Below are positions 9,001-49,683 of a DNA stretch of 64,000 nt, in pieces; position 1 is the stretch's first letter; each line of letters begins with the position of its first letter. Where the stretch lies: contig OU612072.1 in NCBI GenBank assembly GCA_914767715.1, positions 22,446,001 through 22,510,000 on the forward strand. Direction: 5' to 3'. The position numbers and the translations under genes were made by a program. The notes beneath the pieces are model-generated. The model was given only the letters and a program-made list of their open reading frames with translations, searched no databases and was not told the origin of the DNA. The DNA is from Membranipora membranacea (lineage: Eukaryota > Bryozoa > Gymnolaemata > Cheilostomatida > Membraniporidae).

Positions 9001-12000
9001 AAAGAAAATATGATTTCCACATTATTCCCAGTTTTATACAATTATTTTTCGAATAGCCCAGAGTGACTCTGATTTCTTCGCCTCACAGGGTCTTCCTAAA
9101 ATGCAGTGTATTCTTGAATCAAGTTTGATCCATTTTTCCCTTGTATTCAGTTTGCACCCATAATATTTCACAAGGTATGGTGATTTTCTATTAGGATTAC
9201 TTTTCAATTGTCAGACAATTAGACACATGACTGGGCCCCCCCCCTACTTATAGTATAGATTATAGATGACCATTTCTTAGCTTATAGGCTTGTAGGCTTA
9301 TAGATAGATGCAAGTAAAGATATAGATTTATAGATGTTATCAATGTAAAGTTATAGATTTATAGATTTCTTAATGTATCTCTAAAGTGTTGTCAGTGCTG
9401 TGTGTCTCCTGTGCTCTCTTTGTGTGTGTATGGTCGTTGTGTAGCAAAGCAGCACGCTTAAGTTTATAGATTGGAATTCTTAATTTATAGATATTATAGA
9501 CAGTCCTGCTGGACGATACTATAGTATAGCTTCAGAACGGAGGCAATTTTCATTGATTTAATATCAGCAATTCTACTGCCAGCCAGTTATGATATTACAA
9601 AACTGAATGGCAGCTGCCCTACTCATTGGGGATAAATTTACCTTTATGATGGTAAACACTCTGATATCTAGTATATCGACTCCACATTATGGCCCCGTTT
9701 TTCAGCATTTCCAAATTCCATGAATGTTTTGAAGGTAATATAGTTTTTTAAATTTTAACACATTCCATCGATCTCTGGAAGTGATGTAACCATTTTCTTG
9801 ACAGTGGGCTAAACATTGAGTTTGCCAAATTGAGATTGATTCCTAATTAAATGTAACAGAGATTGATGTGAGATGGTTCTTGAAAACAATTTCCATTGAG
9901 AACTGAAAGGCATTCAGATTGCATTACATTGTGGTAGCCAGTGTTTACCTTTCGGATGGATTCTGACACTTCTCACTTGTGGGTGAGCACAATTCCAAAA
10001 ATTTGAAAATCAAAACACATACATACATACATACATGCGATATAGTTTTCGATGTGTTATTTCAATAGCATAATCCAACAAACAAACTGAACATACCCTG
10101 AAGGTAACTCTACCAGATGACAATCACTCATATCCAGTTTCTCTGGCCTTGTAAGTCCTGATAGCGTATCACTCAACTGATCATCTGTACTCAGATAGTT
10201 ATCATTGACATTCAGCACCTTCAGTGATACCATCTTTGAAATGCTGCAAGGTACCAACAAAACATTGAAATTTGTTCATAACAGAGAATGGTGAAATCTG
10301 AATTCGAATAAGATAATAAGATGTTGAAGGTTGCAGTCGATTGCATGCCTCTGAAAAATCCAATACGCCACTTTTACATATGGTTGTCAAGCTCTGATGT
10401 GAAATCATCAAGCAGTTTGATCGAGGCGTCGACTGTCCCAATGAGCGTCTTGTAAGCAAACTGTGATGGCTCTATTACCTCTGTCAATTTGGATCTCATT
10501 TATTTTATTATAACCTCCTCAGTAAGCTTGTCAAGGTGAAACAATATTGACACTGACCAATGGTCTTTGTGTTTGGGAGGGCTACCTTGGAGCTGAGTGG
10601 GCGCTCGAAGTGACAGGCTGAACTCACACAGCTATCTACAATTGTTGTTTGTTTGCCTGTTTGACCAGTGCAGTATTTAAACCTACACTAAACTGTAGCT
10701 ACCAGCCCACAGATCGCTGTCGTCTATGACTCATTGAATAATACGCTATAGCAGAAAGGAGTTTAGAATCTCAAAATCTCAGGATGTTGACTCTACCATT
10801 TGTTCAAATACTGGAGTATGGTATGAATTTGGAGCCTCATAATCTGGGAGAAATCCCATCTCATGTATAAGTTGGAAGTTGAAAAGTGAGCATCATCTGA
10901 AGACTTCCAGATCTCAGTGGAGGGTGAAGAAAATGTTTGCTCGCCTGTCAATGACATATTAAATTTGATGCGATCTACATCGAAAATTCCAGATAAATGC
11001 AACAGAGCCCAAATCCGACCAATCCCTAGGGTTGCTTGCCCCTCCAAACACAAAGACTATCAGCCAGTGTAAATATTGTTTCACCTTGGAACCTCTCTAC
11101 CTGGGATTCTCTCCTGGGTAGGAGATTGGGCGAGCTAGCCGGCTATGAAGTGAAGGGAAAGGGAAAACTTCTCAAGACAGACAAACTGCATAAAACTCAA
11201 TCTAGGTACAAATTTAATCATAGTGACAGACTGGGGTCAGTTCGGGAGCATCAAATGAAAAAATCATAAAACATCATGAATTATCTACTAGAGGAAATCA
11301 ACTCCAGTAATCAGTGACTATACTAAATGGGTGAAAGAAATTTAATGTATATAGTGATTTACTGCGGACAATTGAAAATAGTACAGCAAGTTTCAGGCGA
11401 ACATCAGGTATTGAGAGGATGGAAGCAACTTCAATGTCATTTAGTACAATTATATTCGAATATCCACAATTTGACAACTCACTTAAATTGGACCTAGTTT
11501 CTTTTCATCAGGATAACACTGAGACACATTCATTTCATTGCTTTTAATGTCGTTCACAACATGGAAGTTGTCAAACTACGTTTAGCGATGGGGCAACTCC
11601 CATTTTATTTGACGTTTCGACGTCATCATGTGTAATTTAGTAAAAGCTGTGCCTAAAATCACTTTCTTCTATATATTATTAGTATGCCTCGGGAGACTTC
11701 AGCCTAAACATTTCAGTCTGTTTATCAAAGATCCTAACCATATCTCCAAGCCGATATACAGAGGATGTTCAACTGCTTATTCTTGGCGCAGTCACACAAT
11801 ATCTAGATGCTAAACCCAAGGGATGTTTAAAATCCCTCCTGATTGATTTAAAGGCACCGTTATTACGATACAGTCCAGTAAACAGTACTCAAAAACAAAC
11901 TAATAAAGAACGATCAAATGGATGTAGGCTACAGCTATCTAACACATCACCAGTACTATCATCAGGAAAGAAGTCAGATTCTATCATAAACATCTACAGT

Positions 12001-23086: not shown

Positions 23087-23197
23087 TATGAGTTCAAAAA
23101 AATATCACAAATAGTGAATCTGACAAGATAAGCTGCTAAACTTTCTGTGTGAAGAAATAGCTGTGAGCTCTCTGGAATAGACAGAATAAGATAAGTA

Positions 23198-26100
23198 TTG
23201 TTTACTATTTATTGCTGTATCAATCCAAACTGGCAAATGGATACCAGAGGCCCAAGTCATTTCACACCAGATGGGGATGCTAGCACAGTATCAGTCAATT
23301 GGGATGCTTGGCTTGAGGAATTTGAGGCTTTTGCTGATTCAAAAGGGCTGTTCAATTTGGCAGGGGAAGATAATGCAAATATGAGAGCCCAGAGGAAAGC
23401 TTTATTACTATATCATGCAGGCCCAAGAGTAAGGGAAATTCATAGCACACTTGATCAAACACAGAGAGATCAATATACTGAAATGGTAGCTGTTCTACAA
23501 GGCCATTTCCATATAGCTCCTAACATCACCTATCAGCGACACATGTTTAGGCAATGTATACAGAAGGAAACCGAAACTATATCCCAATACTGTGCTAGAC
23601 TCAGAAAATTGGCCACCCATTGTGATTATGGCGATGCCCAAGCTGTGAATAACCAAATCCGTGATCAAATAGTAGAAGGTTGCACAGCCGATAAGTTGAG
23701 GGAAAAGCTATTGGAAGAGGGAAATGCACTCACATTGCAAATACTATTGACACGGTCAGCAACACATGAAGCTGTGGTCCAAAGGTCCCGGGAGATGAAT
23801 AATGCCTCGGCAATAAACCGTGTGGCCTCTGGATCCACTGCCAGAAAACCTAGTTTCACACAAGAGACTGAGGGTGCTAATGTATGTCCCCGTTGTAATC
23901 TCACACACAAACCTCGTGAGTGCCCGGCATATGGAAAACAGTGCCGTAAGTGTGATGGAATGAATCACTATGCTCGGTGCTGTCAAAACAAGGCCAAACA
24001 GAATGGCCAAGGTGCGAATGCAGGATATTACAGATCTAGAAGGGCCAACAATGTAAATGTGGGGGATCACCAGCAAGCCAGCCCTGAAACAGTGAACAAT
24101 AATTCTGAGAGCCCAGAATTTGTATTCAATTCTTACCATGTACCTTTAGTGTGTAATAGTAACTCTCTAGACAGAGTTAATGTCTATGTCGGTGGTGTAT
24201 CAGCGAGGTTTATAATAGACTCAGGGTCAGAGTGCAATGTGATGTCACGGGATACCTATGAACGTTTGAGAGCAAGTAAGTTTATTATCAAACGGTTCAT
24301 CAGTGGAGGACCAAAGATTCTCCCGTACACAGCCAAAGAGCCTATTCAGCCAGTAGGTAGGGTATGGTGTGATTTACAGCTGCATAACAACACTGCTGTT
24401 TTAGAAGATGTCGCATTTACTGTTATTCCTAATAAAGGTGAATCTTTGTTAGGAAATGAAACAGGTAAACAACTAGGTGTAATCAGGATTATAAATAGAG
24501 TAGGCTTAGATGATTATGAAGCTAGATATCCAAGGCTGTTCTCAGAGGTATTGGGTAAGTCTAAGAATGAGATAAAGCTGACAATTAGAGATGATATAGC
24601 GCCTGTTGCTCAGCCATTCCGAAGAGTGCCACTGTTGTTGAGAGATAAACTAGCCGCTCACTTAGATGAGCTTATCGCACATGATATAATAGAGAAAGTC
24701 GAAGGTCATTCAGGGTCATCATGGGTAAGTCCAGCAGTGATCATTCCAAAGAAGGAATCCGGTAAGATTAGGTTATGCATTGATATGAGGAGAGCCAATG
24801 AGGCTATAGTTAGGCACCAACACCCAGTCCCCGCCGTAGACGAGATGCTATATGACATGAATGGGGCTCAGTACTTTTCGAAGCTGGACATGCGCATGGG
24901 GTTCCACCAATTTGTTCTTCACCCTGAGTCCAGGGATATCACAACTTTCAGTACTCATTTAGGCCTATATAGATATAAGAGACTCATGTTTGGGATAAAT
25001 GCGGCTCCAGAAATATACCAGAAGGAGGTCGCCAAAATTATCCAAGGCCTGCCGGGTGTAGCAAATCTTGCCGATGATATCATTGTCCATGCCAAAACAA
25101 GGGAAGAGCACGATCGTAGGCTGGGTGAGGTGTTCAGTCGTCTAGAGCAGGCTAACATGACTCTGAATAAAAAGAAGTGTGAGATTGGGGTTCAGCAGTT
25201 AGAGTTTCTCGGACATCTCCTTAGTTACAAGGGTATTGATCCCCATGGTTGCAAAGTCAAGGCAGTCAAAGATGCTGCTGTTCCTAAGACAGTTGGTGAG
25301 TTGAAGAGTTTCCTCGGTTTGACTAGTTATATGTCTAAGTTTATTCCACATTACTCTCACACAACTGATGTGTTGAGGAGGTTGTCAGCGGGTAAAAATT
25401 CCCGAGAGGCTATATGTTTGTCAGATAAGGAGATTGTGGCTTTCAATCAGCTAAAGGCTGATTTATGTAATCATGATACTCTGACTCACTTCGATACTAG
25501 TTGTGAGACTCTGCTGTACACAGATGCCAGTCCTGTGGGGCTAGGCGCAATACTGGTACAGATTCAAAATGGCGAGCCCAAAGTGGTTAGCTATGGAAGT
25601 AGAGCATTGTCTGATGTCGAGAAAAGATACATGCAGACAGAAAAAGAAGCTCTAGGTATTGTCTGGGCATGTGAGAGGTTTCATCATTATCTCTTTGGTT
25701 GTCGGTTCAAAGTGGTTTCTGATTGTGAGCCTCTTGAGTCCATTTATGGAAACAAAACCAAGAGGACATCCCTTCGTATAGAGAGGTGGCAGCTTCGTTT
25801 ACAGTCATATGATTTTGAGATAGTTCGCGTAAAAAGCTCAGATAATATTGCTGACCCCCTGTCAAGGCTTCTATGTTCGAAAAAGGCGACTGAACACCTG
25901 GTAGAAAGGGAAAATGTTGAGCTCTATGTACGTAGTGTTGTGGAGGACAATGTGCCATCGGCAATCACACCCCGCTATATTGAGGAAGTCTCTTATATGG
26001 ATGAGGAGATTAAGGCCTTAAAACAAGCTATAAGAGCGAATTCATTCGACAATGTTGATATACCAGCTGTATATAGGGCCATTAAAAATGAGTTATGTGT

Positions 26101-27412
26101 CATAGGGGAGTTAGTTTTGAGGGGAGGTAGGATAGTAGTACCTCAAGAGCTCAGACAGAAGATGCTTGAGATAGCTCACGAGGGTCATAGTGGGATGGGA
26201 GGCACCAAGAGATATCTACGAACAAGAGTCTGGTGGCCCGGAATTGACTCTGATGTAGACAAGTATGTTAAACACTGTCACGATTGTCAGTTGACCAGTA
26301 AGCCACTAGATAGGCAGCCAGTAAGGGTGACAGAACTTCCCAATGGACCATGGGAAGATCTTGCCTTAGATTTTTTGGGTCCCCTGTCTAACGGTAAGTC
26401 AGTTCTAGTCTTAACAGACTATTATAGTAGGTGGAACGAAGTAAAGTTCATGACAGTCACAAAAGCTAGTGATGTTATTTCTTGGCTGAAATCAGTATTT
26501 TTTACGCATGGGTATCCACTCAGCATGAAGAGTGACAACGGGCCACAGTTTATCTCTCATGAGTATGGTGAGTTTTGCTCCGGGTATGGTATCGAACAGT
26601 GTCTGACAACCCCTAGGTGGCCTGAGGCCAATGGTCAAGTGGAGAGACAAAACAGATCCATAATGAAGCGTATTCAGATTGCACACAACAATAGGGTAGA
26701 CTATGAGAGTGCCCTCATGACATGGCTGTTTACATATCGTAATACACCACATTCCATTACTGGCAAAAGCCCAGCAGAGATGTTATTTGGGCGTGTGCTT
26801 AGGACTAACTTGCCAAGTCTGCCTAATAGTTTTGATGACGTTGAAGCTAGAGATAGAGATAGTGAGATGAAACACAAGATGATAGCCACCCGTAACGAGA
26901 AGTTGGAAACTGGTAGTGGCAATAATCACCAGCTAGAGATAGGCAGTTTTGTTTTGGTTAAGAGAGATAGTCCATCTAAATGTCAGACACTGTTCCACCC
27001 AGATCCATTTGTGGTAATGGACATAAAAGGCTCTCAGATCACTGTAAAATCCAGGGCAGGCCGGCTGTATAAGCGTAACATAAGCCATGTTAGACCGTAT
27101 TACTGCTCTGAGAAACCTGTTGTAGATGCGGACGTGGATTCTGAAACGCAGGGAGCCTTAGTAGCCACCCGCCCATCACAGATGATACCGATAATACCAA
27201 GGTCAGAGAACGATACTGAGACGGTAACAGATAGACCAGTTCAAGTGACGCCGCCTACAGTACCACCGGCACTTGTCGAGATCGAAGATATACCTCAGGC
27301 AGCCAATATGCCCAGCTCATCACAACCAAATGTGCCTACTCCTCGTAAATCTGTACGAGCTAAGAATCGGCCAGCTAAATATGATGGTTTCGTGACCGAG
27401 TACCACACCTAG
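23198..27412 (+). CDS. Gag-Pol polyprotein of the Ty3/Gypsy element
   Basis: Single uninterrupted 1,404-codon ORF; a second Met at 23237 (MDTRGPSHF) is the more likely start. Gag occupies about the first 220 residues. Two Cys/His knuckles (CPRCNLTHKPREC and CRKCDGMNHYARC) lie near residues 229-262, and the protease motif IIDSGS near 338. In the reverse transcriptase, LDMRMGFHQF lies near 563 and the catalytic LADD near 624. RNase H TDASPVGLGAIL is near 775, the integrase zinc-binding HxxxH...CxxC near 994-1030, and the integrase D, D, E at DFLGP (1058), SDNGPQF (1112) and PEANGQVER (1143). Gag and Pol are fused in one frame with no frameshift site. The tail after about 1290 is Pro/Ser/Thr-rich. 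All catalytic residues are present, so it may be active. Confidence 0.97.
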   Translation: MFTIYCCINPNWQMDTRGPSHFTPDGDASTVSVNWDAWLEEFEAFADSKGLFNLAGEDNANMRAQRKALLLYHAGPRVREIHSTLDQTQRDQYTEMVAVLQGHFHIAPNITYQRHMFRQCIQKETETISQYCARLRKLATHCDYGDAQAVNNQIRDQIVEGCTADKLREKLLEEGNALTLQILLTRSATHEAVVQRSREMNNASAINRVASGSTARKPSFTQETEGANVCPRCNLTHKPRECPAYGKQCRKCDGMNHYARCCQNKAKQNGQGANAGYYRSRRANNVNVGDHQQASPETVNNNSESPEFVFNSYHVPLVCNSNSLDRVNVYVGGVSARFIIDSGSECNVMSRDTYERLRASKFIIKRFISGGPKILPYTAKEPIQPVGRVWCDLQLHNNTAVLEDVAFTVIPNKGESLLGNETGKQLGVIRIINRVGLDDYEARYPRLFSEVLGKSKNEIKLTIRDDIAPVAQPFRRVPLLLRDKLAAHLDELIAHDIIEKVEGHSGSSWVSPAVIIPKKESGKIRLCIDMRRANEAIVRHQHPVPAVDEMLYDMNGAQYFSKLDMRMGFHQFVLHPESRDITTFSTHLGLYRYKRLMFGINAAPEIYQKEVAKIIQGLPGVANLADDIIVHAKTREEHDRRLGEVFSRLEQANMTLNKKKCEIGVQQLEFLGHLLSYKGIDPHGCKVKAVKDAAVPKTVGELKSFLGLTSYMSKFIPHYSHTTDVLRRLSAGKNSREAICLSDKEIVAFNQLKADLCNHDTLTHFDTSCETLLYTDASPVGLGAILVQIQNGEPKVVSYGSRALSDVEKRYMQTEKEALGIVWACERFHHYLFGCRFKVVSDCEPLESIYGNKTKRTSLRIERWQLRLQSYDFEIVRVKSSDNIADPLSRLLCSKKATEHLVERENVELYVRSVVEDNVPSAITPRYIEEVSYMDEEIKALKQAIRANSFDNVDIPAVYRAIKNELCVIGELVLRGGRIVVPQELRQKMLEIAHEGHSGMGGTKRYLRTRVWWPGIDSDVDKYVKHCHDCQLTSKPLDRQPVRVTELPNGPWEDLALDFLGPLSNGKSVLVLTDYYSRWNEVKFMTVTKASDVISWLKSVFFTHGYPLSMKSDNGPQFISHEYGEFCSGYGIEQCLTTPRWPEANGQVERQNRSIMKRIQIAHNNRVDYESALMTWLFTYRNTPHSITGKSPAEMLFGRVLRTNLPSLPNSFDDVEARDRDSEMKHKMIATRNEKLETGSGNNHQLEIGSFVLVKRDSPSKCQTLFHPDPFVVMDIKGSQITVKSRAGRLYKRNISHVRPYYCSEKPVVDADVDSETQGALVATRPSQMIPIIPRSENDTETVTDRPVQVTPPTVPPALVEIEDIPQAANMPSSSQPNVPTPRKSVRAKNRPAKYDGFVTEYHT

Positions 27413-29464: not shown

Positions 29465-29600
29465 CCGATCTGACATTGTCAGATTAGCAAGTGCTGATCA
29501 GGTTTACCAAATCAGCGATAACCTGTTCAGCGATTATCCGATCAGGATTACCCGATCAGCGGTTACCCGATCAGGATTACCCGTTCAGCGGTTACCCGAT
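29465..29600. repeat. Degenerate tandem repeat spanning the RAPGEF1 stop codon
   Basis: Units such as GATCAGGATTACCC and GATCAGCGGTTACCC alternate about nine times. The last unit contains the end of the RAPGEF1 reading frame (minus strand GGTAACCGCTGA), so the final codons and stop are part of the repeat. Confidence 0.8.
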
Positions 29601-29708
29601 GGTTTAATCTCTTTGGATCTTTCCCACATTTCATCATCGCTGGAGTTGTGATCACTAAAGTTATCCAAAAACTGCAGAATCTTCGGATCTTTCTTGAACG
29701 GATAAACT
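29585..29708 (-). CDS. RAPGEF1: RAPGEF1 exon 15 (last; C-terminus)
   Basis: Acceptor TATTGTAG; 124 nt to the stop at 29587-29585. It encodes the end of the CDC25 domain (DPKILQFLDNFSDHN) and the typical C3G tail W-x(4)-K-x-IKP. The closing codons GNR-stop fall inside a tandem repeat. Confidence 0.88.
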
Positions 29709-32700
29709 CTACAATATACAGCGATATAAGCAAGTGAGAAATAGATATTTCTAATGATAGAAACAACTTACACATTTACAGAGAAAACGGCTCATAAGAA
29801 TAATTCAGTCTTTTGCAGTATTATTTTAGATATTTTGTCTTCCTCCCATGATGTCTATAAGCTCCCCTTATATGACACAAACTGGGAGGCTGCAATATAA
29901 CATGCATATTTGATGCTAACATGTACAGTGCCTTTTTCCCGCACAGTTTTTGCAGCAAACGAGGGAATCTGCATGTTTACTGAAATGATGTGGCTGGAAT
30001 TTTCTCTCATGATACACTGCTGTGCAGTCATTAACACAAATAAGGGAAGGGGTGGTGAAATTGGAATATTATTGGAAATGGTCTATTCTTGACAAACTTT
30101 GTACGTTGGAATGAGGGGAGGGGACAAACCTTGCCAATATTCCTTTGAATTGTCAGGTGGTGATTTGGCACCCCCTCCCCCCTATTTAGCCGTTATGGTG
30201 ATTCTAAGATCATATTACGTTAGTGTTACCACAACTGTGACTAAATTTTGCGACTTTTGAAAGTAATTGCAAGTGAAAGTTTGTTTCACCCTCGAGGTGT
30301 CCCTCCATTTCCGGAGGGGGAAACCCAAAGCAAATGACGACTAGTTGTGTCTCCCAAAACAAAGCTGATGAAGAAAGGCTTAATCTGGACCTCCTTCACT
30401 TATATCAGTACCTGCTGATGTGTTTGAAGAATTTTATTTTTATATGTAAATTTGCACATCATATAAGTAGCCTACATTTATATATAAGTACACCAATATG
30501 TATATATATATATATATATAAGAACACATATTATATGTAGGTACAGATCCAGTTCTATAAGATATCTACTTACGGTTTACGGAATCTCCTCAGACATTCG
30601 AGTACATTGAACAGATGCCACCTCATCTGAAAGTTTATATTCCCGTCAGCGAGATTAGACGTGTTACCCACGCGTATAATAGTCATATCGTTCAATATCA
30701 GACCACTGTAAGAAAAAGTGTTCTTATGTTAATAATAATGATAATGGGTTTATTTATATACCACTTGATCTAAGCCACAATGGGTTGCAGTTTACTGCAC
30801 GGTCACTGGGTCCAAGCACTCCATAGCCAACCCTGACTAATGAGAACCTTCATCTCATAAAGCGTTGGTACACCTTGTTATTATAAAACCACAAAATAAA
30901 TGCAAATGTGACTGACTACTGTATGAGCAACACAACCAGGACCAACTACATTAGAATCAGACTAGCATAGGCCGAGCAAGCTTTGAGAAACGGCAGAGTA
31001 CAAGTGGCTCATAAATTATCAGAAGCCTGGAGAGTTGTGAGCCATTTTCTGAGACAGGTATACTTATAATGTAAAGGTTTGTTTCACAGAATTAAACCCT
31101 TCTCATAGAATGGAGAAATTAGCATAACCCTATCCAATTAAAACACTCAACACAGGGGCTGATCTGACAATGATCTCATTGGCTGTCCCTACTAGCTTGC
31201 AGAATGTAGCCTGGGAAATAGTCTTGAAATTCTACTAGGGACTGGCTATTTTTGCAAGCCCTTTGTTTGGCTCATTATGCAACTCCAGATATGGATTTCG
31301 GTGGTTTGTTTGTTTCCTTAATTTTACCTCACCAAATTATAACACACAGCTTTTTACATTAACTATTTTTGTTACCCGAGTATGCTTCTACTGGTGAACA
31401 ACAATAATAGATTGATTGTGAGAGGGACAGGTTTCTTGGTGTAATTCTGAAGTTCTCCACCTTGTTTAGAATACTGCTCATGGTGGCCCAGTTTTCAAAG
31501 GTACTCAAAAGGTACTCTTTTTTCCAAATATTGAAATTAGAACCATTTTAGGAACTTCTCATTACAACTATGATAGAAAATCAGTTGAAACTGGGCCAGA
31601 GGCTGTTTATGAGCTAAGGCTAGTATTCTGAAATAAACTGAGAACTCTAGAAAGATACCAAAGCACCTGTTTCACTGATAATTAAGCTTTTATTGTTGTG
31701 TACCACTAGCCTTGTCACGCGGCCACTGGTTTTGGATTTTTTGGTTCTTTGGGTGGCCTTGTATTTCTCGGTATAGTATCGGCAGTTGTCTTCTGCTGTT
31801 TTAGCTCTAACCTTCACCACTTTGAGCTTTGACTCTTTCTCTGTTCCATAGGCAAATTAATTAACTTTGTCGTTTATCATATTCAAAATATATATAAATA
31901 AGTTGATTACACTACATATTGCAGTAATGATGTTAAAACATCGCTAAGTTGCAGAAAATTTAATACACCGATGAGTATGACCATGACCTTGACCTTGATC
32001 ATGGTCTTACTCACGGGTTTTTTAAATTTTTTTCAACTTAGCCATGTTTTCACATTATTACTGCAATGTTTAGTGCAATCAACTTATTTATATTTATTTT
32101 GAATATGACATATGACAAAGTTAATTAATTTGCCTATGGAACAGAGAAAAAGTCAAAGCTCAAAGTGGTGAAGATTAGACCTAAAACAGCAGAAGACAAC
32201 TACCGACACTATACCGAGAAATACATGGCCACCCAAAGAACCAAAAAATCCAAAACCAGTGGCCGCGTGACAAGGCTAGTGTATCACTACTAGCATACTT
32301 TTGTAACGGCGGTGAGCGTTACTGCTGTACAATACATATTATTCACACTTTTTCAAGGCTTGATCCAATTCATTAAACATGGTAGTACGGAGTTGCGTCC
32401 TATCATTCACACACTTCTACTAGGGACATATAACTTACATATAAGGTATACAGGGAGGCTCTGCTTCACTGAGCGCTGTACGGTATGATTTAAAGCTGCT
32501 TGTACAATCTATCAGATGGAAGTACTCTGATATCATATCCTTCTCCTGTCTCGGCCAGTCGAGTCGACTAACCGGAGCCGAGTCCAGCGCGCTCAGTAAC
32601 GCCAGCAGTGAGTTAAAGTTGTTGTGTTTCCGTAAATGCTTAATAAGATTAAAATTTAATTACGCAAGGCACAGTCACTTGATTTAAGTTGAATACTTGG

Positions 32701-35700
32701 ACATAACAGGCAATTATTACAAAGAGAATTGGCTAAGCAAAAAACGTTAGTGAGTCTATGCAAACATGGTTGTTATCATTTTACAACCGTGATCTTGTTC
32801 AAATTTTGAAAGAGTAGATACTGAGCGTATTTGCCAGCCACACAATGGTTTTTCATCTAATGCAACCAAAGATTTAAAATACTAGTCATTGATGCAACTG
32901 TTTCGCTTTGAAGGTTTGCTTTGTAAGTAATAATCGCCAGTGTGTTTCTACCTTTTGTCACAGAGATCACTAAATGTGACACTCTCATCAAAACATAATG
33001 GGCAGGCGTATCTCACTACATGATGAGCACTCTATTGGAGCATCTTGTTTTTGAATCACCCTACCCTAGAGGAAAAGTTCGCGTTTAGCAATAGCTCTGA
33101 TAGCTAACCCTAAATCTAGCTAACATTGACTCACCCTCTTTACTTTATATCGAATCCCACCTCAAGTAGCCAAAATTATTGCTAGCCAAAATTAAGTCAC
33201 TCTAAATCTAGCTAAACTAAACTCTAGCTAACATTCCCCTCCCTCCCTCCATTTGTTGATTCTCTACACATGCTCCAAGCTCACAACCTGCTGTGTTTAA
33301 CTGTTCCATATTTTAAGGCTAATGGACAAGGAATGGACTGAGAGACTAGTGGATGCCAGATTTGGAATCTCCATGCCTCGTTACTTTACTGTGCTGCTAT
33401 CCAGTGTTGAGATATAGGTAGCGATGCCTGGTGCATGTAAAAACGCAATGTAATGAAGCGTAGAGATTCTACATCTGGCATCCATGAGTCTCTCAACCCA
33501 TTCCTTGTCCATTAGCCTTGGTCATTTAAGCCATAAAAAATAGAATATATAATTGATTCCTATTCGCAAATCTGCGCTGATAAAATGATAAAATCTCTCC
33601 CTACACACTCACCTTGAGTATATGTACAAATTTGATGAAGTATTTCTCTCTGATTGCCTGATCGTCTGGTTTGAGTATTACATTCCTACACCACCATGAC
33701 ATCTTATTAAAGTGCTCCGTAAACTGTACCAGATTGGGGCACCTGTAGAGAGCAAGTAAACACAACATTACTGATGACTGATACTCGGTACACAGCTGAC
33801 TGAGTGTAGGTCACTTTGTACAGGCCATATTTTTTGAATCGTAGTCAGATAATTGATCTACTGCTAGCCTGCCTGCTTGAAAAGATTCTATGAAAGCCAT
33901 CTCCAAATGGACAGACAATCATGATTTGATATCACCTGGGGTCTCTGCCTATTGCTGCCTGTTTATGGCACTACATTGACGGTTGATGGTGGGGTGGGGG
34001 TGGAAAAGTCAACGATGCCCTGTTTGAAACGCTTAAAACCGCTTCCATCTCGATGAAAGTTGGCCTCACTGAACTACATAAAGCTCAGAGAAGACACCTG
34101 GATATATGAACTGTCAACTAATGGGCATATTATTTTCAGATTAAGATAGTTGAAATCAGAATTCAGAATCAAGGAACTTAGTAATGACAGGAGTATGACC
34201 TACCATTCTGAGAGTGAAGTCTCAATTAGTATTAATATTTTAGATAACAGAACTCAATGAGCACAAATTTAACTGACTAGCAGCAGCACCTGTGACTTGC
34301 GAATATAATCTACACCTTACTGTACAATCTATCATATTGAGTCCACCTGTACCACAGGCTAGGTCAAATGGAGCACTGCTCGGGTCTTGTAATCAGACGG
34401 TGTAACTGATCAAAACCTCCTCAGTTACCATCAGAAGCTCACCAAAGATGGGTTCATTGAATTTATCTTTGCTTAGTATTTATACCCCATAAGATATGTC
34501 AAAGTGTCCTAGTAGAGTGTTGTATATATATATAGGTGTTTTTCCCGAAAACAACGTGGCACCAGAAGGATTGGAGGGTAGACCACCCCGCCCAGAAGCT
34601 TTGTTGCTCATTGGTCCTTAGTCTAATATAAGTGAGTGTATAACTTACTTTTCTTCGTTCTGTTCTCTAGACCAGGTGAGAAGCTCAGGTAATTCTAACC
34701 TCTGATAGAAGTCTGTCTCTATAAGTGTGAGATGCTCTGCAATCTCGTGTGACTTGAAATCCACCAGTGTTAAAACTCGCCTGGGAAATACAAACAGAAC
34801 ATGTGTTATAGTGCTTGTGAGAGAATCAGATCTTTGGTAGCATGCTGAGTTCTTAGACTAATATTTGTAATAGTGCTCTAGGCCCATACACAGCCTGCAG
34901 CTCAGTTTCTAGTGATTTTCACAGTTGAGATGTGAAGGTACTAAAAAGGTACTACAGAGAAACTCTTTTCATGATAGCATTTACAGTAGTATTATTCATT
35001 CACAATCACGCTAGGTCATGGTGAATGCTGAAACCTTTGCGGATGGATCAGATGCAAATCGATATTCTCGGGAGCTCATTATATTGAGCTAGTTTTTCTG
35101 CAGGTAATTATAAATGTGTCTGGCACTTCGGATATGGGCTTAGAGTATACATTAATTTGAGAGAAAATGAACTGCAGAAAAAAACATACTGATCTTTGAT
35201 CCGGTAGCATTAGCCTTATTCACGCGGCCACGGGTTTGGTTTTTTGTGGTGTTCGCGTGAACAAGGCTAGGTAGCATCAATTGCTTATTACAAGATCAAT
35301 TCAGGGAGTGATTAAAATCACATGAATCGTTGACAATTTGCGCCAGTCATGTGCTATCAAGCATTGACTGAATATTTGTGCACAGCACGATTATGAATTT
35401 CCTAGAGGGGGTAAAGAATTCGCGAGAGAAAAGGTTCTTCATTACCAAGAAGCTTGAAGTAGCATAATTCAAGGCTGGCTAAAACTATATATATTAAAAA
35501 GATTGAGTAAAACTCCAACCTAAATTAGCCAGAACCTAGTGCCTTTACATTAAGTCGGCATAGGTAGAATGAAAGGGGCTGACTTAATTCAGCTCCTTTC
35601 ATTCTACCTAGTCAGCTAAACCTGAAGCTGAACTTAACTCAGCTGATATTTACTCCTCATGCGTATATCAGTCTACTTTTACTTACGATGGAGATTTGGG

Positions 35701-38700
35701 GCCGGACGAGGGAGCTACAATCTGCAGTTCCTGAACAGGCCTCTGATTTGGGTCACATTTCTCAAGCACTTTACGTCTCATAATCTTAGCGAGCGTCAGT
35801 TCTCCCTCCCTTACCAACTCTGTGACTAGCTTCAATAATCTCAGGCTAATAGCCTCTTTTAGTTCGCTGGATCTGTATAATGGTAGATGACATAATTAGC
35901 GTTGTGTGAAATTAGCATCGAAGTTATTTCCGATCTTTGTCTTACAGAGAAATCTTGCTCAGGATGTCAAATGATCTGACACCAACCCAGCCTTGTCACA
36001 CAGCTATTTTTTGTAGCCACGTGACAAGCTACCACCAACCCTTCATTGTCATCTATGTCTGATTCTGCAGCCAATTTATGCCTCTTGTAAATCCATTGTG
36101 GTGTCTCATATTTTAGTAAGTACATATAGAGACTAAAGACTGGTTCACATTGTCCCAGATAGCGTCGGGATAGCATCTGGGATGCTGATCCCAAATGGTC
36201 CCAGAAAGAGTATGTCTTTTGTTTACATTGCAAAACTGATCCCAGATAGTCCCAGATCATCCCAATGTTGTATTCACATAGTACCAAGATGAGAAATGCG
36301 TCTGTGTCATTAACGGGAAAGTTCCTAAGCGTCTAACTTTTCCGTTGCTGGCCCAGACTCATTTCGATCGTGTTGTATTTATATTCACAATGTCTGGGTT
36401 GGCTGCAATGGACAATGTGAACTAGGCTTAACAGCCTGCTCAACTACAGGCAAATGCTACTTTAACTCCGGTTTTAAGCACCGCAATGACTAAATAAGGA
36501 ATCAACGTTCAAATAAACTTTTATGAGAGAAGAGAATAACGAAATGATGAGGCTTACGTCAGCTCATCCAGAACTCTGACGAGGAGGGAGAAGGCGTTTC
36601 TGGACAATCTCTTCTTAGAGACATCTTTAGAGTGAGCAAACTTGTTATATCTGTATAGCAGTTTATCTATGAGATCTTCTGGTGTGATGAATGTCCTGTA
36701 GGTCGTCAGAAAAGCCTCCTGATACATGAAATCTAGAATAGAGACAGCAGGTAAAATATATATCAGGGCAACTATATTGTCATTACCTGCTTGGCTGGTT
36801 TTATTTTAGGTCTAATTATGAGGTAATTTTGGGCATATGGACTTGAAGGTAAGGTCAATATTATGTTAGCATGTATTGTAGTTCTGTTCAGCCCAAATCA
36901 GTAACCAACAGGTCCTCAGTTTCAAGAGTTAAATTCAAAATCTAAATAAGGCGCAAATTGAGTCATATATGGAACAAATTGTGGTAAATGCCGATAAAAG
37001 CAATTTTCCTCTACAAATTTGTGGCTTTCTATGATATAAGTAAAAAGAATCATTTCTATATGGATCAAGTCTTAAATAAAGGCTAGCCTATGTTTGGAGA
37101 CTAAAATAGTGTAAGCAAAGATTGTAACATTGAACTCCCAAGCCTCCCCAAAGATACCAGTGAAGTCCATACATAAATATTCTATTTGTGATCATAAGTT
37201 TACCCATAAGCCCAGTGGGGTGTAAAACCAAACCAGACAATTATTGCTGCCCATATAGTAATCAATTCATACTTTTGCAGCTTATTGTTCCAACTTAGAA
37301 AGACAGGATCTATGATTTTCAATAAGATTAGTCCTAATAGATTAGTCCTAATAGATTAGATGATTCAAAAAAGATTTGTATTGAAAGTCTGCTTTGTAAA
37401 TTAATCGGAAATAGTAAGGCTTTTTCCTGTTCAACAATCAATTAAATGTCCTATAAAGTTGGGAACACTAAATAAAACGGGTAAAATACATAAGTAAGAG
37501 GATCTGAGTTGACCCAGAACTAAATAAAGACATAAATATACAAGCAGCGCTGACGCATTAAAGATAAGCTGAGCAGAGCCAGATCACCATGTCTCAGACA
37601 GATCACCATGCCTCGGACAAATATCAGCTAACCTCGCAGGAAACCAAGAGAAATACTACCTAACTTGATCATGGTGAAGTGAGATTGATCAGATTTTATA
37701 CTGAAATGCAATATTTGAGCTTTCCCCTCCCTCTCTCTCACCAAATGTGAACCCAATTAAATAAGGAGGCTTCATTCCGAAGCTGACCTGTTTGATAACT
37801 TTAGAGTCAAGGACAATCTCAGAATCCCGCATGAGAACAGGAAGGTTTTTGATGGATATTTTTGCATTCGGATTGCTCAAGCGCCATCTTAACATTTCTA
37901 ATCAGTTGGCATATCCAGTTATCATAGCCTGGTCATGCTGCTACTTTTTGGGTTTAGGGAAACCAAAAATGTAGCGGCTTGTAGCGGCTTTAGTTATTTT
38001 ACAAGTGGTTATATGTGAGGTTTGTATTATTTACTCTAAATCAACTCAACTGTAGTGAAATGGAAGGTCAGATTACAATGGCTGTCAAAACATCGAGAAA
38101 GCTGTGCAGCATGTTATTGAAGAGAGGCTATTCCAGCAATATTCCCATAATGCAATTCATCACATTCTGGGCCTATCGACAACTACTCGCCTCTGCTGAG
38201 CATGCAAAAGGAGACTCACTGCAAATTAACATGCCAGAGCTAAACGGACTGAACTGATGCTCAAGGACAGATTCTGAGCAGAAATGTTTGCAAGATGAGC
38301 AGCACATTGGTGCGCAACCATAACGTCAATCAGCAGAGCAGAGATAAATCATATGAGGGATTAACGTAGCACTGCATTCGTAAGTGAGAAAATTGCAAAG
38401 TTTCACATTCAGTGATGGGATAGCTGCTAGGAGTCATTAGGATACCGAAATGAATATATAAAATTCTTCATTATAATATCTGGGCTGGTTTGTCTTGTGA
38501 AGCTTGTTCTGGTGAAATAATTTGTAAAAAACAAAAATTTAATAGGATAGACTAAACAAGGTAAAGCCTTGGACCACATAAAAGTAGTTTCACTACATGT
38601 GCCGCCTCAGCTCCGTTCAAACAACAAGTTTAGGTGAAACCTCTCAAACTACAAATCCTACATTTAAGTGCAAGTGATCCAAGATTTGCCCTCTAAATTC

Positions 38701-41280
38701 AGCCACATCATAGAAAAGAAACCCTGTTATAAGTAATACCAATATCCCACTATATATGTGAATGTGTTAGATTTTTGCCTGAGTGCCCTGTCTGCTTTAA
38801 TAAGGGATTGATTGAGATCACTTGGGCACACAGGCTAGTTAGATATAGAAACATGATCTAAATGGCGTAAAATGCGTAATTGAGTCCAACACACTGCTTT
38901 TCTCAGGGATGGTAGAATTCACAATGATAAAAAAGAAGAAGGCTGGATCTCGGCTGAAAGGAGGGCAGAATCTAGAATTACCTGAATCTGCGTCGACGTT
39001 TACCAGTGACATTAAACTGTCGGCTGGCCCTAAATCTGCACACAAAACACAGCTAAAGTTAGAGGATGAATTATACACAAAGTAAGCTTTCATGTTTATA
39101 CCCCTCTAAATCTAATACCCACACATTTAGTATTTACTGAGGCATGGACTCGGACCTGGTACATTTTAATGGTGGACTTCTATGGTACATTTATGGTTCT
39201 ATAACCGGCAGCACAGTAGCGTGAAAAGCTAGTTATTGGCGACAGCGGACGGTGTATGATGCTCATGACATATGAGTTTATACATGGATGAATGGTCTGT
39301 CTGTCTACAGAGAAGGCTTTTCGACTCTAAAACTAAGTCTGAGAACCGCCCATTCATAGAACATCCCTATGTAAACTCACATATGCCTACTGCACAGAAA
39401 TTGAGCGGCCGTTTCAAGCAGCGACTTGGCTGGTAGCAGAAAATAATATTAACAGTACTATCAGCAAAAAACGCTGAAATCTGGCAGCGGGTCTATCATT
39501 ATAGCAACTTAAACTGCAATGCGATGACATAAAGTTACATTTGCCACCAGCTCAAATGCCAATTAAATGAGATGAGATATAATTGTTTATCATACAATGT
39601 TTTCCTACGTGTGTATCGTACACTACGAGGGTGTCTACACTACCACCCTTCAGCCCTGACATGATCTTTGACGAGCCACCCTAAAAGCAAAACATTGGTA
39701 AGTGAATGAAATATTCAGGCATCGATACGAGCATCGGCAACTTACATCCAAATATTACACTAGAGGAGTTATGTATTTGCATGAGGAGAAGCTAGCCATT
39801 TCATATACTATCAAACTACCTGACATTCAACCTTAGCTAACGTTTACTCATCCACTCGGCTTCATATAGACTCCCACCTCAGGCAGAAAAAATATAGTGC
39901 AAGCTAACATTAAGTAACCCCTAAAGCAGCTAAATTAAACTCTTCCTAACATTACTCATCTAGGGTCATTGTAAATTCAGCAATACAAACAGTTGCGTAA
40001 GGGAAGGCAACTCCCATCCATTAAATTAACAAAAATTAAGAAGCTAACATCCTATTGTATACATGAGGACAACAGTTTGTAATACAAGGACGCCGCTTCG
40101 CACATATTATTACAAGATTACCTAATATCTACCTAGGAGAATATATATCAGCTAGATTCCAGTTTAGACTGTTTAGGGGTGACTTTATGTTAGCTACTGC
40201 CCATTAAGGCTAGCTAAAGTGGATGTGTAAATGTTAGCTAGCAATAATATTCACTATTCAAAGAATAAAAGCGAGTTTTTTTCCTCCCTCAAATACCTTA
40301 CTCATAGCATCTAGCATCTTGCGCCCCTAATTGTAGTACTTACCTTACGATGATGGTGATTGGTTGGTTTAGCAGCGCTTGAGGAGGCGGTACTTGCCTG
40401 ACGATGATGGTGATTGGTTGGTTCAGCGCTGGAGGAGGCGGTACATACCTTACGATGATGGTGATTGGTTGGTTTAGCAGCGCTGGAGGAGGCGGTACTT
40501 GCCTGACGATGATTGTGATTGGTTGGTTCAGCGTTGGAGGAGGCGGTACTTACCTTACGATGATGGTGATTGGTTGGTTTAGCAGCGCTGGAGGAGGCGG
40601 TACTTGCCTGACGATGATGGTGATTGGTTGGTTCAGCGCTGGAGGAGGCGGTACTTGCCTGACGATGATTGTGATTGGTTGGTTCAGCGTTGGAGGAGGT
40701 GGTTGTATTAGATGAGATACTACCGACAGCACTGTCACTGGATGTGCTACTACCTTCACTTTCTCTGACTAAAATAGAGATATTAGGTAAAGGTCAATGT
40801 TTACTGATAACTAACTATACTGCTATTATTTACAGGTGCAACCTTATTCACAGTCACTATATGCTACCTTATTCATAGAAGAATGAGGTGGCTCACTTGG
40901 TTGGAGCACCGGTCCTTTAGCATACAAATGTTGGGGTTTGGTTGCACCAAGGTGTGCTCCGATCTGCCTGCAAAGAGAGACCAACCTGGCGCGGATATTA
41001 TGCCTCAGCCCCCTTTTTTAAACAAGTCACTATATTACAGACTTAGTATAGATCTGAAGTGATCTATGACTAAAATGGAGAGATCAATTCATGGTTTCTG
41101 TTTACTGAGAACCAAGTTTACAGCTGACATGTATGATATTTTACTATAATATTGTCTTAATTGAAGTTCTAGGATACATCTCTGAAGGGCCATCATACAC
41201 ATTAAAAATGTACTGCTTGATAGACTGACTAGCTACATAGAACGCTAATATATATATACCTATATACATATGTACATATG

Positions 41281-41312
<32 letters not shown>

Positions 41313-44300
41313 CAATGTATATACATACACACATTTGTGCAATAAAGTGTCATATATTATATATCCCACTATTGTACCCATAAAAACCCTGGACAATGAG
41401 TGATTCATATATGTATATATATATATAGTGGCTATCAGTGTGTAGGGCATATCTTTGCATTGGAGTTGTCCGACCATGTCAGGCTATTTTATCTACCATT
41501 AATTACTATTGGGTTAAGGATGCCCAACATGATTATTTAAGAGGATTTAAGACATGATTTTTTGTGGGTCATATAAAATGACTCCTTATTTTTGAGTGAC
41601 ACTTAGTTGGGGCCAAATACACACAGATGACACTTAAATGCACAGATTTGAATCTATATATATATATATATATATACATATACATATGTATATATACATA
41701 TCGCTGAAGTCACATAATGGACAGACTTTGAGCATGTTTGGGATTATGAGACTGATAGTCTGCAGTAACGCCTGAGATTGGTATCTTATGAATCCTTCTG
41801 TCAGGAGTAGTTCTATGTGTCAGGCGACAACCTTCCTTTGTCCCGCCCGATGGCTGGCCCTGTTGTGCCACGCTGCAGTTGGACAAGCGCCAGGAAATGG
41901 GCCACATCACATAAAGTGACGCAAAAGTTTATTGTAATAAGGAGACACCAAACTCCCCCCCCCCCCCCAACATAAGACAAGACACCGGAGGAGCACTTAC
42001 TGAGAAGTTCTCTCACATCCACCATATCCAGAGGATTTAGCTCGGCGTACTCAGGGTCCTCAGGCTCAGTGTCTGAGAGAGCTAGTGATGATCTCTGTGA
42101 GGACGGGCCGTATGACTCATCACCCTCACTCACCTACAGCATATTATAAGAAACTAGGCTATAGTGAACAGAAGGGTTACTGATGGCAAAAGAATCTTCC
42201 ATCCTGTGTATGGGATTTTTTATTGATTATTAATAATCTATTTTCTCTCCACAGCACATGTTGGCTTTTGCCTATTATCTAATTTGTTAAATGAATGAAT
42301 TTTTATTGATCATTAACTGATGTGACATCTTCTCTTTCTCAAGTAGTCGGTTTGACAGCGCCAGGCCAGCAAAATATTTTATGTTTTCAAATCCAGATTC
42401 TGACCTCAGTGAGATTTTTGCTGCCGCTCCCTCAGTCCCCTCCATACCATCATGGAGCATCATAGCATGCCTGTTTTCTGGACACTGATGTTGCGGGTGG
42501 TACATGTAGCCCCCTGCTCCGCCATTGTGCATCAGCATAGCCTGTCAACAAACACAATTCATTACAGTTCCAATTACCATTCGAAGTTCACTATAGATTC
42601 ATAAAAAACACAGACAAATTGGCTTTTATCCAAAGAAACTATCACATAATTATAAGCCTGTAATTCATACAGACCACTTTATATTCATAATGATATAGTC
42701 TACCATATGAGGGGAACTTAATCATATTAACCAGTAGTCTTAGCCCCCAAGAATCTTGCCCTCCCTCGTCCGACGGGGGGGGGGGGGGCAAGTCTGAGAA
42801 CTATGTAGGAGTTTGCTAAAATTGTCTGCTCTTGTAAAATACAAGTACTAAATCTGCAATATCTTTTGAGTTTTACTCCTTCCTGAAGAAAGATGTTATT
42901 CTGTGGGCCGTCATTGATATGTGTGCATCTTTTGTTTACCATCTACAACTCTAAATATCCCCAGAAGAAGCTAAGGGACAAACGCCAATGTAGTCTGGGC
43001 CCTCCAGACCTTTGCCCCCGCCCGATGGCCCCCCGGCCAGGGACTCCCCAATGTCTTTATATAGTAACCTCGTCACGCGGCTCCTTTTTTTGGTTAGGGG
43101 AAAGTAGCTGGGTGACAAGGCTATCTATTTAGTATTAAGTATGTTTGCCGTAGCCTGTAATTTGGACATGATGACCTAATGACTGGATTATGGATAACAT
43201 CTGCAGACAGTGAGATCCAGTCAAATATATCACTCTGACCTGAGCTGACTTGATATATGGGGGTAAAGTCTTATAAGGCTTCCTGCACTACAAACTAGCC
43301 TAGTGCCATATTATAATGCACAATTAAATGTTCTAAATGTTAGCTATGTCGAGTACTTAGAGTTTTAGTGTGTGGTTACATGGTGTTTTTAAGTGAGAGC
43401 GCATGTGGGCCTACTCAGTGTCAAAAGTTAATCCATTTTTGGTAAGCAAGGCTGCCACATTTTCTGTGATGGCAGGTTCAAATCAGAGACAGCAACAGAA
43501 GTTCAGGGGCGTGTCTGGGGGGACTGTCCAGCGGGGGTCGAGAGTCTGGGTGCTCAGACTGTAGATGACATAAAGTCAAGTCAAAAATAGATGATATTCT
43601 TTGGATAAAGCAAGCCTTAGGCGTTTATGTAAAACAATGTGCTCAAACATTGTCATGTGGACCCTACACAGCCAATGACCGACTAAATAATGCACATTTG
43701 GAAGTCTCTGTACTTTGTGACCTCCTGTGTGGATAACGAGATTTACTCACATGATGCTGCAAGAGTTCCCGCTGATGTTGCTCTTGCATGTGGAGGTAAA
43801 ATTGACGTCATGTAAAACTGTCGACGGGATTGAACTCCGACAGTTGTGTCTCAGTGCCAAACACATGCATGTATGACTCAACTGTGAAAATATGAGAAAT
43901 CAGTGATGGTTAAAACAAAGTATAGTATTCGGAATAATGTTAACTTAACCTATCCAAGTTCCTAATCATGTGTAGTCAATATATCATCTCCCCCCCCCCA
44001 CCCCTACAGGTAGAGGGCGGGGTAAGATAGCGGATTGTCGCTAACTAACTACTGTATGGAGCCTGTGAACAGAAACTAACAAATCACTCTAGATAATGTC
44101 AATCAGGTACGCCTTGATCCAAGTTGCAAACCAAAATACCCTGAGCCACAATAGATTGACAATAAAAAGCATACACATAAAATAGCATAAAAACTTATTT
44201 TTGTAGGTAATTTACTAAAGTTATACCAAGTTTAGAGATAGTTGGTTTCTTTTTGTGCACCATGTCGCAATTGCTCACAAGTTTATGACTTCTGGCGTCT

Positions 44301-47905: not shown

Positions 47906-49683
47906 TGTTTATATGTAAGGGGATCAATGCAAGCAACTCTCCTAAAACAATATTGTCACAATGTTGGCTATCAGGTATTACGTTTTACGTTTAGGCCTAC
48001 GCTATGCGTTGACATTTTATGGTCTTATCTTATGGTAGACAAGTTATAACAGTAGACATGATTGCAACTCCCAGCTACAGAGAGGATGTTCAGAACAGAA
48101 TATATTTTCATTGCAGAATCAGCCAAGTTCGTCGTCTGCAACTCCTCCCTCCAAGTGCGAGCACATAAAGTTCAGCCGCAAACGAAAGAAGACCATTGAC
48201 AACACCTATGTTCTCCACGGCATAATTATCCCCCAGGTAAATTCCACCAAGTACCTTGGAGTAAAGCTGGAAAAGGACCTACGGTGGAACACAAACACCA
48301 ACTTCATATCAGCAAAGGCAGCCAGCAGACTAGGATTCGTCTCGAGGACTATCCCATTCACTCTTCCTCATCTACGAGAAAAAGCCTATAAACAGCTGGT
48401 CCGTCCTGTACTTGAATATGCTAGCACTGTGTGGGATCCGACCTTGACCACCACCCAGAGCAACGCGCTAGAGGCTATCCAGAGAAAGGCAGCTAGGTTA
48501 GTAAACAACATCAGTAGGACTGACAGGACCACAAGCACAATGGAGATACTATGCAAGATGAACTAGGAGAAGCTATCATCCAGGAGGGAGTCAAGAAGTC
48601 TTGGTCTATTCAGAGCAATTCAACTTTAATGAGATTGCCACCACTATCACTGATTACATCTCCCCTCTCTCAGCTACATCTGGTTTTAGCAGGAGGCATG
48701 AAATGCAATATCACATCCCTCACTGTCACTCATTACACCACCAGAACAACTTCTTCATCAAAACAGCGAAGGCCTGGAACCAGCTACCTGTGAGCAGTAA
48801 TCTCCTCGTGGCACCACCTGTGGCAGTCTAGACTGGCATGACAGAGAATACCCGATGATCCCATGATACCGACGCGGAACGAAATACGGAGTAGACGATT
48901 ATGCCATATCTCTAGGACCTTCAAAAGAAGCTGGAGATTACACTACAAGTAGCAAGTAAGTAAGTAGATGGCCCTAGATCTTTAACATGATTCTTTCTAT
49001 TTTAAAATAGTCTATTAATTAAAATTATGAATGAAGCATGAATTGAATAAGCCTAGAACATGGCCTCAAGAAACAACAATTGCAAAAGATTGCTATGAAA
49101 AGTAAGCTTCTTAATGCCTACTGTGGATCTATATAAGTGATCACTGCTTGCTTAGATAATCATTGTTTGTTTTGTAAAATCTGCTACATACAACGAAACG
49201 AATTCACAGGAATCCTCCAGCTAGGGCTACGCTAGTTACAGTAGTAGGGAAAGCTACTTATCTCAGATCCACCACAATGTCAACCATAACTGCGCCACAC
49301 ATATAAATATTTCACTACAATCACCTCACCTCAAGACTGTACATATGTAGATAGCTCAATTTGGCTTGTTCTGCAGACAGTGCATGTATTTTTTTCTTCA
49401 CTCCTCACTTATCATCAGGGAGTTACAAAACAAAGATTTTACTTTCAAACTCCTTGCTTATCATTGTCCAGCTTTGACTTTTCTTTTTCAATTGCAACAC
49501 TCTTAGGATAGGAGATAAAAAAAAAACCTCACTTTTTGTAACACATGATTTGATTGGCTGCATTATGATATGGAGTATTGGTATCAGTATTCTTGGAGAG
49601 AAAAAGTTAGTAGGGCACTCAGGATTACTTTATTATCACATCATTTGTGGTGTCTTTGACATTTGGAATCTACTGCTTTAAAG
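47906..49683. promoter_or_regulatory. Divergent intergenic region between RAPGEF1 and AP2S1
   Basis: 1.8 kb separating two head-to-head starts, so it should contain both promoters. No TATA box at a convincing place for either gene. About half is occupied by a truncated LINE. Confidence 0.5.
48100..48966 (+). mobile_element. 5'-truncated non-LTR retrotransposon (3' end of RT ORF)
   Basis: Encodes only the region after the RT catalytic core: STKYLGVKLEKDLRW, YKQLVRPVLEYASTVWDP, LEAIQRKAARLV, then in another frame IATTITDYISPLSATSG and NNFFIKTAKAWNQLP. One frameshift near 48560. It ends with AAGTAAGTAAG, a tail of short repeats rather than poly(A), as in several L2/CR1/Jockey-type lineages. A different lineage from the LINE at 3.2 kb. 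Confidence 0.85.

Follow-up and report, generated by a model that had tools for sequence, protein, structure and literature searches.

A minisatellite across an exon-intron boundary multiplies a 5′ splice site-like donor in a partly decayed RAPGEF1 cluster of a bryozoan

The RAPGEF1 cluster of the bryozoan Membranipora membranacea carries a minisatellite whose repeat unit spans the junction between exon 6 and the following intron. We analysed it in a stretch of 64,000 nucleotides (the window; 22446001-22510000 of contig C8, a contig of 27 Mb) and across one genome assembly of 339,339,785 bases in 18 contigs. The copy in the window displays seven sites resembling 5′ splice sites, spaced 51 or 54 bp apart, within a truncated member of the family. 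The array is probably a neutral exon-boundary minisatellite in an amplified, partly decayed cluster, in which the first donor of the parent gene would most likely win over the donors behind it.

In the window copy, the array occupies 40337-40702 on the minus strand. Tandem Repeats Finder delimits it at 40336-40703, both with a period of 51 (7.0 copies, 89% match) and with a period of 105 (3.5 copies, 94% match). Each full unit comprises 45-48 exonic and 6 intronic bases, so that tandem duplication multiplied the 5′ splice site. An earlier note on this DNA had described a minisatellite that multiplies a phase-0 donor across the boundary, and unit anatomy, Tandem Repeats Finder and the sequence all bear this out. 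Its seven units of 51 or 54 bp hold as a count of donors; strictly, the array consists of a 45-bp exonic first unit followed by six full units.

Along the minus strand, the donors are separated by 51, 54, 51, 54, 51 and 54 bp, and their dinucleotides run GC, GC, GT, GC, GT, GC, GT. With the slash marking the exon-intron boundary, CAG/GCAAGT occurs as donor 1 (40653-40661, last exon base 40659), donor 2 (40602-40610, last exon base 40608), donor 4 (40497-40505, last exon base 40503) and donor 6 (40392-40400, last exon base 40398). AAG/GTAAGT forms donor 3, the first GT donor of this copy (40548-40556, last exon base 40554), and donor 7 (40338-40346, last exon base 40344), while donor 5 reads AAG/GTATGT (40443-40451, last exon base 40449). 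Exon 6 follows the acceptor ttttag/TCAGAG, starts in phase 1 and extends over 40344-40768 with the last donor; the first donor would end it at 40659. The possible lengths in this copy are thus 110, 161, 215, 266, 320, 371 or 425 nt. All seven donors join in phase 0 to the acceptor of exon 7, ttttag/GGTGGC, whose first exon base is 39680. The three GT and four GC donors, their common phase, the open frame of the array and the acceptor at 39680 can all be read in the sequence as the earlier note had given them. Exon 12 is reached without a stop in all seven modelled splice forms, in a model that leaves out exon 7b and in which the single counted stop lies beyond the exon 12 donor.

Two linked kinds of unit make up the array, one of 51 bp (..AEP..HRQ, with CAG/GC) and one of 54 bp (..AAKP..HHHRK, with AAG/GT). 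They alternate as a 105-bp dimer, except for an extra unit of the 51-bp type at the array start. The repeat period and the donor positions suggest that GC and GT alternate because this dimer was duplicated. Across the whole cluster, CAG precedes all 21 GC donors, whereas none of the 61 donors with another triplet at -3 to -1 is GC. The GC state is therefore tied to one subtype and most likely arose once and was then copied. The four GC donors, put forward as striking in themselves, lose that standing; counting them as four events was rejected in favor of one copied repeat subtype. CAG/GCAAGT fits U1 at eight of nine positions, all but +2. GC-AG introns are a known class of splice sites, which the putative GC donors resemble in their strong consensus apart from +2; they differ in being bound to a single repeat subtype.

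Only about 1% of single changes to the unit consensus create a stop. Because the unit is nearly stop-proof, the open frame of the array means little, and we rejected it as evidence of translation. The units at 40337-40702 also contain CCTCCTCCAG or close forms, which look acceptor-like by eye. No protein among 553 candidates matched the array region at E <= 0.001. Scanning the 64-kb window for Rfam families and tRNA genes also gave nothing, and neither did pattern scans of viral contigs.

The gene family is identified by Pfam matches to RasGEF_N and RasGEF in the joined window exons and by bryozoan C3G proteins, the best named relatives among 102 matches: Bugula neritina at 77% over 61% of the query and Watersipora subatra at 71% over 69%. 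The query for these searches, and for the genome search with exons 10 and 11, joined exon 7 directly to exon 8, without exon 7b. All exons lie on the minus strand. Exon Ec (43757-43882), which matches residues 274-313 of Watersipora C3G, is the 5′-most RAPGEF1 piece found in the window. It is followed by exon a (..YAELNPLDMVDVRELL, 42001-42133), placed by sequence and bryozoan protein comparison, and, downstream of exon 6, by exon 7 (39596-39680), placed by sequence and comparison of copies. Exon 7b, of 54 nt (38982-39035), was found by its match to the Bugula and Watersipora proteins; inspection by eye did not show it in the two other relatives read, P0004 and P0005 (Lottia). Exon 8 (36558-36732) falls inside the RasGEF_N match and exon 9 (35687-35872) comes next, while the RasGEF match starts in exon 10 (34649-34780) and includes exon 11 (33613-33742). 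Sequence comparison places exon 12 at 32439-32638, with an approximate 3′ end, and, approximately, exon 13 at 30573-30710 and exon 14, encoding the C-terminus, at 29588-29707.

The window locus is a 5′-truncated RAPGEF1 copy with an in-frame TGA, and not an intact gene. The family assignment made earlier therefore stands, but the intactness that went with it does not. The TGA lies in exon Ec (VDSFT*RQFYLHMQEQ); five other copies share it, six have the sense codon TCA, and in the remaining five the exon was not found in the stretches read. Residues 1-273 of P0003, the N-terminal part with a proline motif, have no convincing match in the window. In contrast, the copy at 22.943 Mb, which lies about 457 kb away from the window array, is preceded by matches to P0003 residues 18-88, 96-149, 152-196 and 219-275 in this order, followed by an exon Ec with TCA. 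The frame of this copy is open from exon 6 to exon 12 with each of its four donors, AAG/GTAAGT, CAG/GCAAGT, AAG/GTGAGT and AAG/GTCAGT, which lie in frame 54 nt apart. On this evidence, which covers exons other than a and b and takes exons 13-14 as search matches only, the copy at 22.943 Mb is likely the intact parent RAPGEF1 gene.

The window copy may then be a dead pseudogene whose array has no consequence, so that only the intact copy matters. We regard this as marginally probable, and it is compatible with the neutral reading of the array. The truncation and the TGA speak for it, as do three private replacements in exon 7, where the window copy reads VDTL..VYDTH..KHY and the intact copy VDAL..VYATH..KHD. 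Exons 8-11 point the other way, with two private synonymous changes and no private replacement among the 14 copies compared, and a start at MQEQ.. just past the TGA is conceivable. P0001, a JGI protein from a contig of 1,359 bases that is spliced over exons 8-14, suggests that some member of the RAPGEF1 family is transcribed. Its match to exons 8-12 is equally good in the window and intact copies, and it lacks two residues of window exon 13; on both counts it was rejected as proof that the window copy is expressed. Its start, within the intron that precedes exon 8, makes it uninformative on the array.

A genome search with the array found 17 matching places, 16 of them on the minus strand; all are on contig C8, in the interval from 20.6 to 22.95 Mb. 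For exons 10 and 11, the search gave at least 19 places each, most of them sharing one orientation, and its 107 scored matches are confined to this contig. Two further copies, with exon 11 at 22.365 and 21.288 Mb, have neither exon 6 nor exon 7 within the sequence read around them. Exons 7, 7b, 9, 10 and 11 are present in all 17 array-bearing copies, exon 8 is absent in one and partial in another, and exon 12 lay inside the stretch read for nine. An evident lesion in exons 7-12 marks seven of the 17 (L009, L012, L016, L018, L019, L021 and L023).

The arrays hold one to seven donors each, 83 in total (60 GT, 21 GC, one GG and one CT), and the expectation that repeat copy number varies is thus borne out among the 17 paralogues of one assembly. 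Even two copies with 8 differences across 1,295 flanking bases have four and seven units, so that copy number varies between close paralogues. Copy L024 (C8, 22.627 Mb) has a single unit with the weak donor AAA/GTCAGT and is probably a contraction of the array. Trees of the array flanks and of exons 10-11 (L026-L042) are strongly discordant, which points to gene conversion or unequal exchange between the copies. The first donor is AAG/GTAAGT in 15 of the 17 copies, or 15 of the 16 other than the window copy. The last donor is GTAAGT in the window copy only and differs in the other 16 (15 of the 16 multi-unit arrays), where it reads GTCAGT, GTCAGA or GTTAGT. Exchange has probably deprived the window copy of the unit types that are usual at the two ends of the array. 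The likeness of these unit types across the other copies may reflect descent alone.

The proposed history would begin in the bryozoan lineage with tandem duplication of a unit made of the last 45-48 exon bases and the first 6 intron bases. One early daughter unit would have gained a C at -3 and a C at +2, giving CAG/GC, and this unit would have spread as dimers were later duplicated and repeats exchanged unequally. Amplification of the 3′ part of the gene into the cluster may have followed, with copy number and unit order continuing to change, and the window would represent one truncated, nonsense-bearing product of this process with its seven donors. Both in the parent gene and in the majority of copies, splicing would most likely take place at the first donor, a perfect AAG/GTAAGT that yields an exon of 113 nt, with the other units mostly removed as part of the intron. 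The downstream donors could yield occasional in-frame forms, longer by 18 residues per step. We infer this preference from the strength and position of the donors, strength having been scored with a human weight matrix.

Near-identical neighboring donors often compete. A rather unlikely alternative is that the array is neutral but that splicing proceeds at substantial levels from several donors side by side, producing a C3G ladder in steps of 18 residues that has no selected function. The intact copy would lend itself to this: its four donors, three GT and one GC, are in frame at intervals of 54 nt. Whether as such a neutral series or otherwise, use of several of its four donors would give C3G proteins with linkers 18 residues apart, a ladder that would change with the minisatellite; we consider this possible, if doubtful. 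In mouse and human, alternative splicing affects the Crk-binding region of C3G, where a brain-specific insert follows the fifth proline tract (PMC7606606). Splicing variation in length is therefore already known in this general region, and the likeness lies in a change of length between the proline tracts and the catalytic part. The mammalian forms arise from added exons, whereas donor copies are concerned here. Against substantial parallel use stand the top score of the first donor, which gives an exon of ordinary length, and the weak last donor in 16 of the 17 copies.

The array had also been proposed to serve as a selected linker, tunable in length through donor choice and repeat number. 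Its units of 51 and 54 bp, its variable copy number and its place in the linker just before the RasGEF_N match are in keeping with such a role, but the units do not evolve as it would lead one to expect. Among the 66 units after the first donor, 42 variants (counted as if independent, although they are not independent events) comprise 33 replacing and 9 synonymous changes, against 26% synonymous expected (p=0.60). Variable columns in these units number 16, 9 and 7 at codon positions 1, 2 and 3. The repeat units after the first donor vary like neutral DNA, with no detectable codon constraint. In exons 8-11, compared in 14 of the 17 copies, 42 variants include 17 synonymous, 24 replacing and 1 stop, against 25% expected (p=0.03); the difference in synonymous share between array and exons reaches only p=0.10 in a Fisher test.

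Divergence among copies is 1.0-1.7% in exons 8-11, 2.6-10.8% in sampled introns, 1.2% in exon 6 before the repeat, 4.3% in exon 7, 5.4% in the first unit and 5.0% in the last. Because the first unit, which is coding in any reading, also evolves fast, the missing constraint cannot by itself establish the later units as intronic, and a disordered linker would show a pattern like that of neutral units. The donor core is more variable than the rest of the unit (7 of 9 columns against 25 of 45; diversity 0.144 against 0.066).

Frame gives a mixed picture. All GT and GC donors are in phase 0 in 13 of the 17 arrays. A 53-bp unit shifts the frame in three related copies, and a fourth has lost 17 bp before the first donor. 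All three copies with the 53-bp unit carry the TGA, whereas five of the six TCA copies have wholly in-frame arrays, a pattern that leans toward the healthier copies being under some constraint on frame. In Bugula and Watersipora C3G, the linker at the array position is short and without repeats, so the same array in related species, which the earlier note had suggested looking for, is not seen at the protein level; such proteins would not show an unannotated intronic array. Together with the frame-shifting unit, the 17-bp loss, the diverse donor core and the truncated, nonsense-bearing state of the window copy, the lack of codon constraint makes a maintained tunable linker very unlikely. That the cluster is partly an assembly artefact, with haplotypes or repeats laid end to end, is more improbable still, given places on one 27-Mb contig with differing spacings, lesions and mosaic relationships between copies.

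The human CBS 31-bp VNTR, which reportedly affects splicing, is the nearest known case within a limited literature search. In PMC2630376 it is written c.1444_1467+7(16_21). By that name, its unit likewise joins an exon end (24 nt) to an intron start (7 nt), with a junction in each repeat and a varying copy number. Its 31 bp are not a multiple of three, however, so its donors would change the frame, whereas the RAPGEF1 arrays have mostly 51/54-bp phase-0 units, mixed GT and GC donors and 17 paralogous occurrences. VNTR terms gave no match in PMC7277093. Within this search, the array is unusual, and what is new relative to the CBS type are units in multiples of three, the GT/GC mixture and 17 parallel arrays.

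The window contains several further features outside the RAPGEF1 locus. A long open frame at 23195-27409 on the plus strand has reverse transcriptase, RNase H and integrase matches above the cut-off and gag and protease matches below it, as in a Ty3/gypsy-like retrotransposon. Open frames at 3159-4400 and 48039-48563, also on the plus strand, appear by eye to be pieces of non-LTR reverse transcriptases; the second has no Pfam match. On the minus strand, repeated leucine-rich-repeat-like open frames at 849-1289 and 10060-10275 are alike by eye, with Pfam LRR matches below the cut-off at 849-1064.

Our analysis separates the eye-catching window copy from the intact gene, and it is on the copy at 22.943 Mb that any test should be made. 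It also illustrates how intron bases can become potential codons through a minisatellite. Donor choice among near-identical sites is usually studied in built minigenes, whereas here nature provides 17 arrays with one to seven donors in comparable contexts. Their GT, GC and weakened sites come in varying order and are paired with one shared acceptor sequence, which makes them a natural splice-site competition series in one genome. RNA reads assigned to individual copies would test first-donor preference, the limits of exon length and the strength of GC donors. If a ladder from several donors proves true, this presumably young cluster would amount to a competition experiment between splice sites that nature has set up within a single genome.
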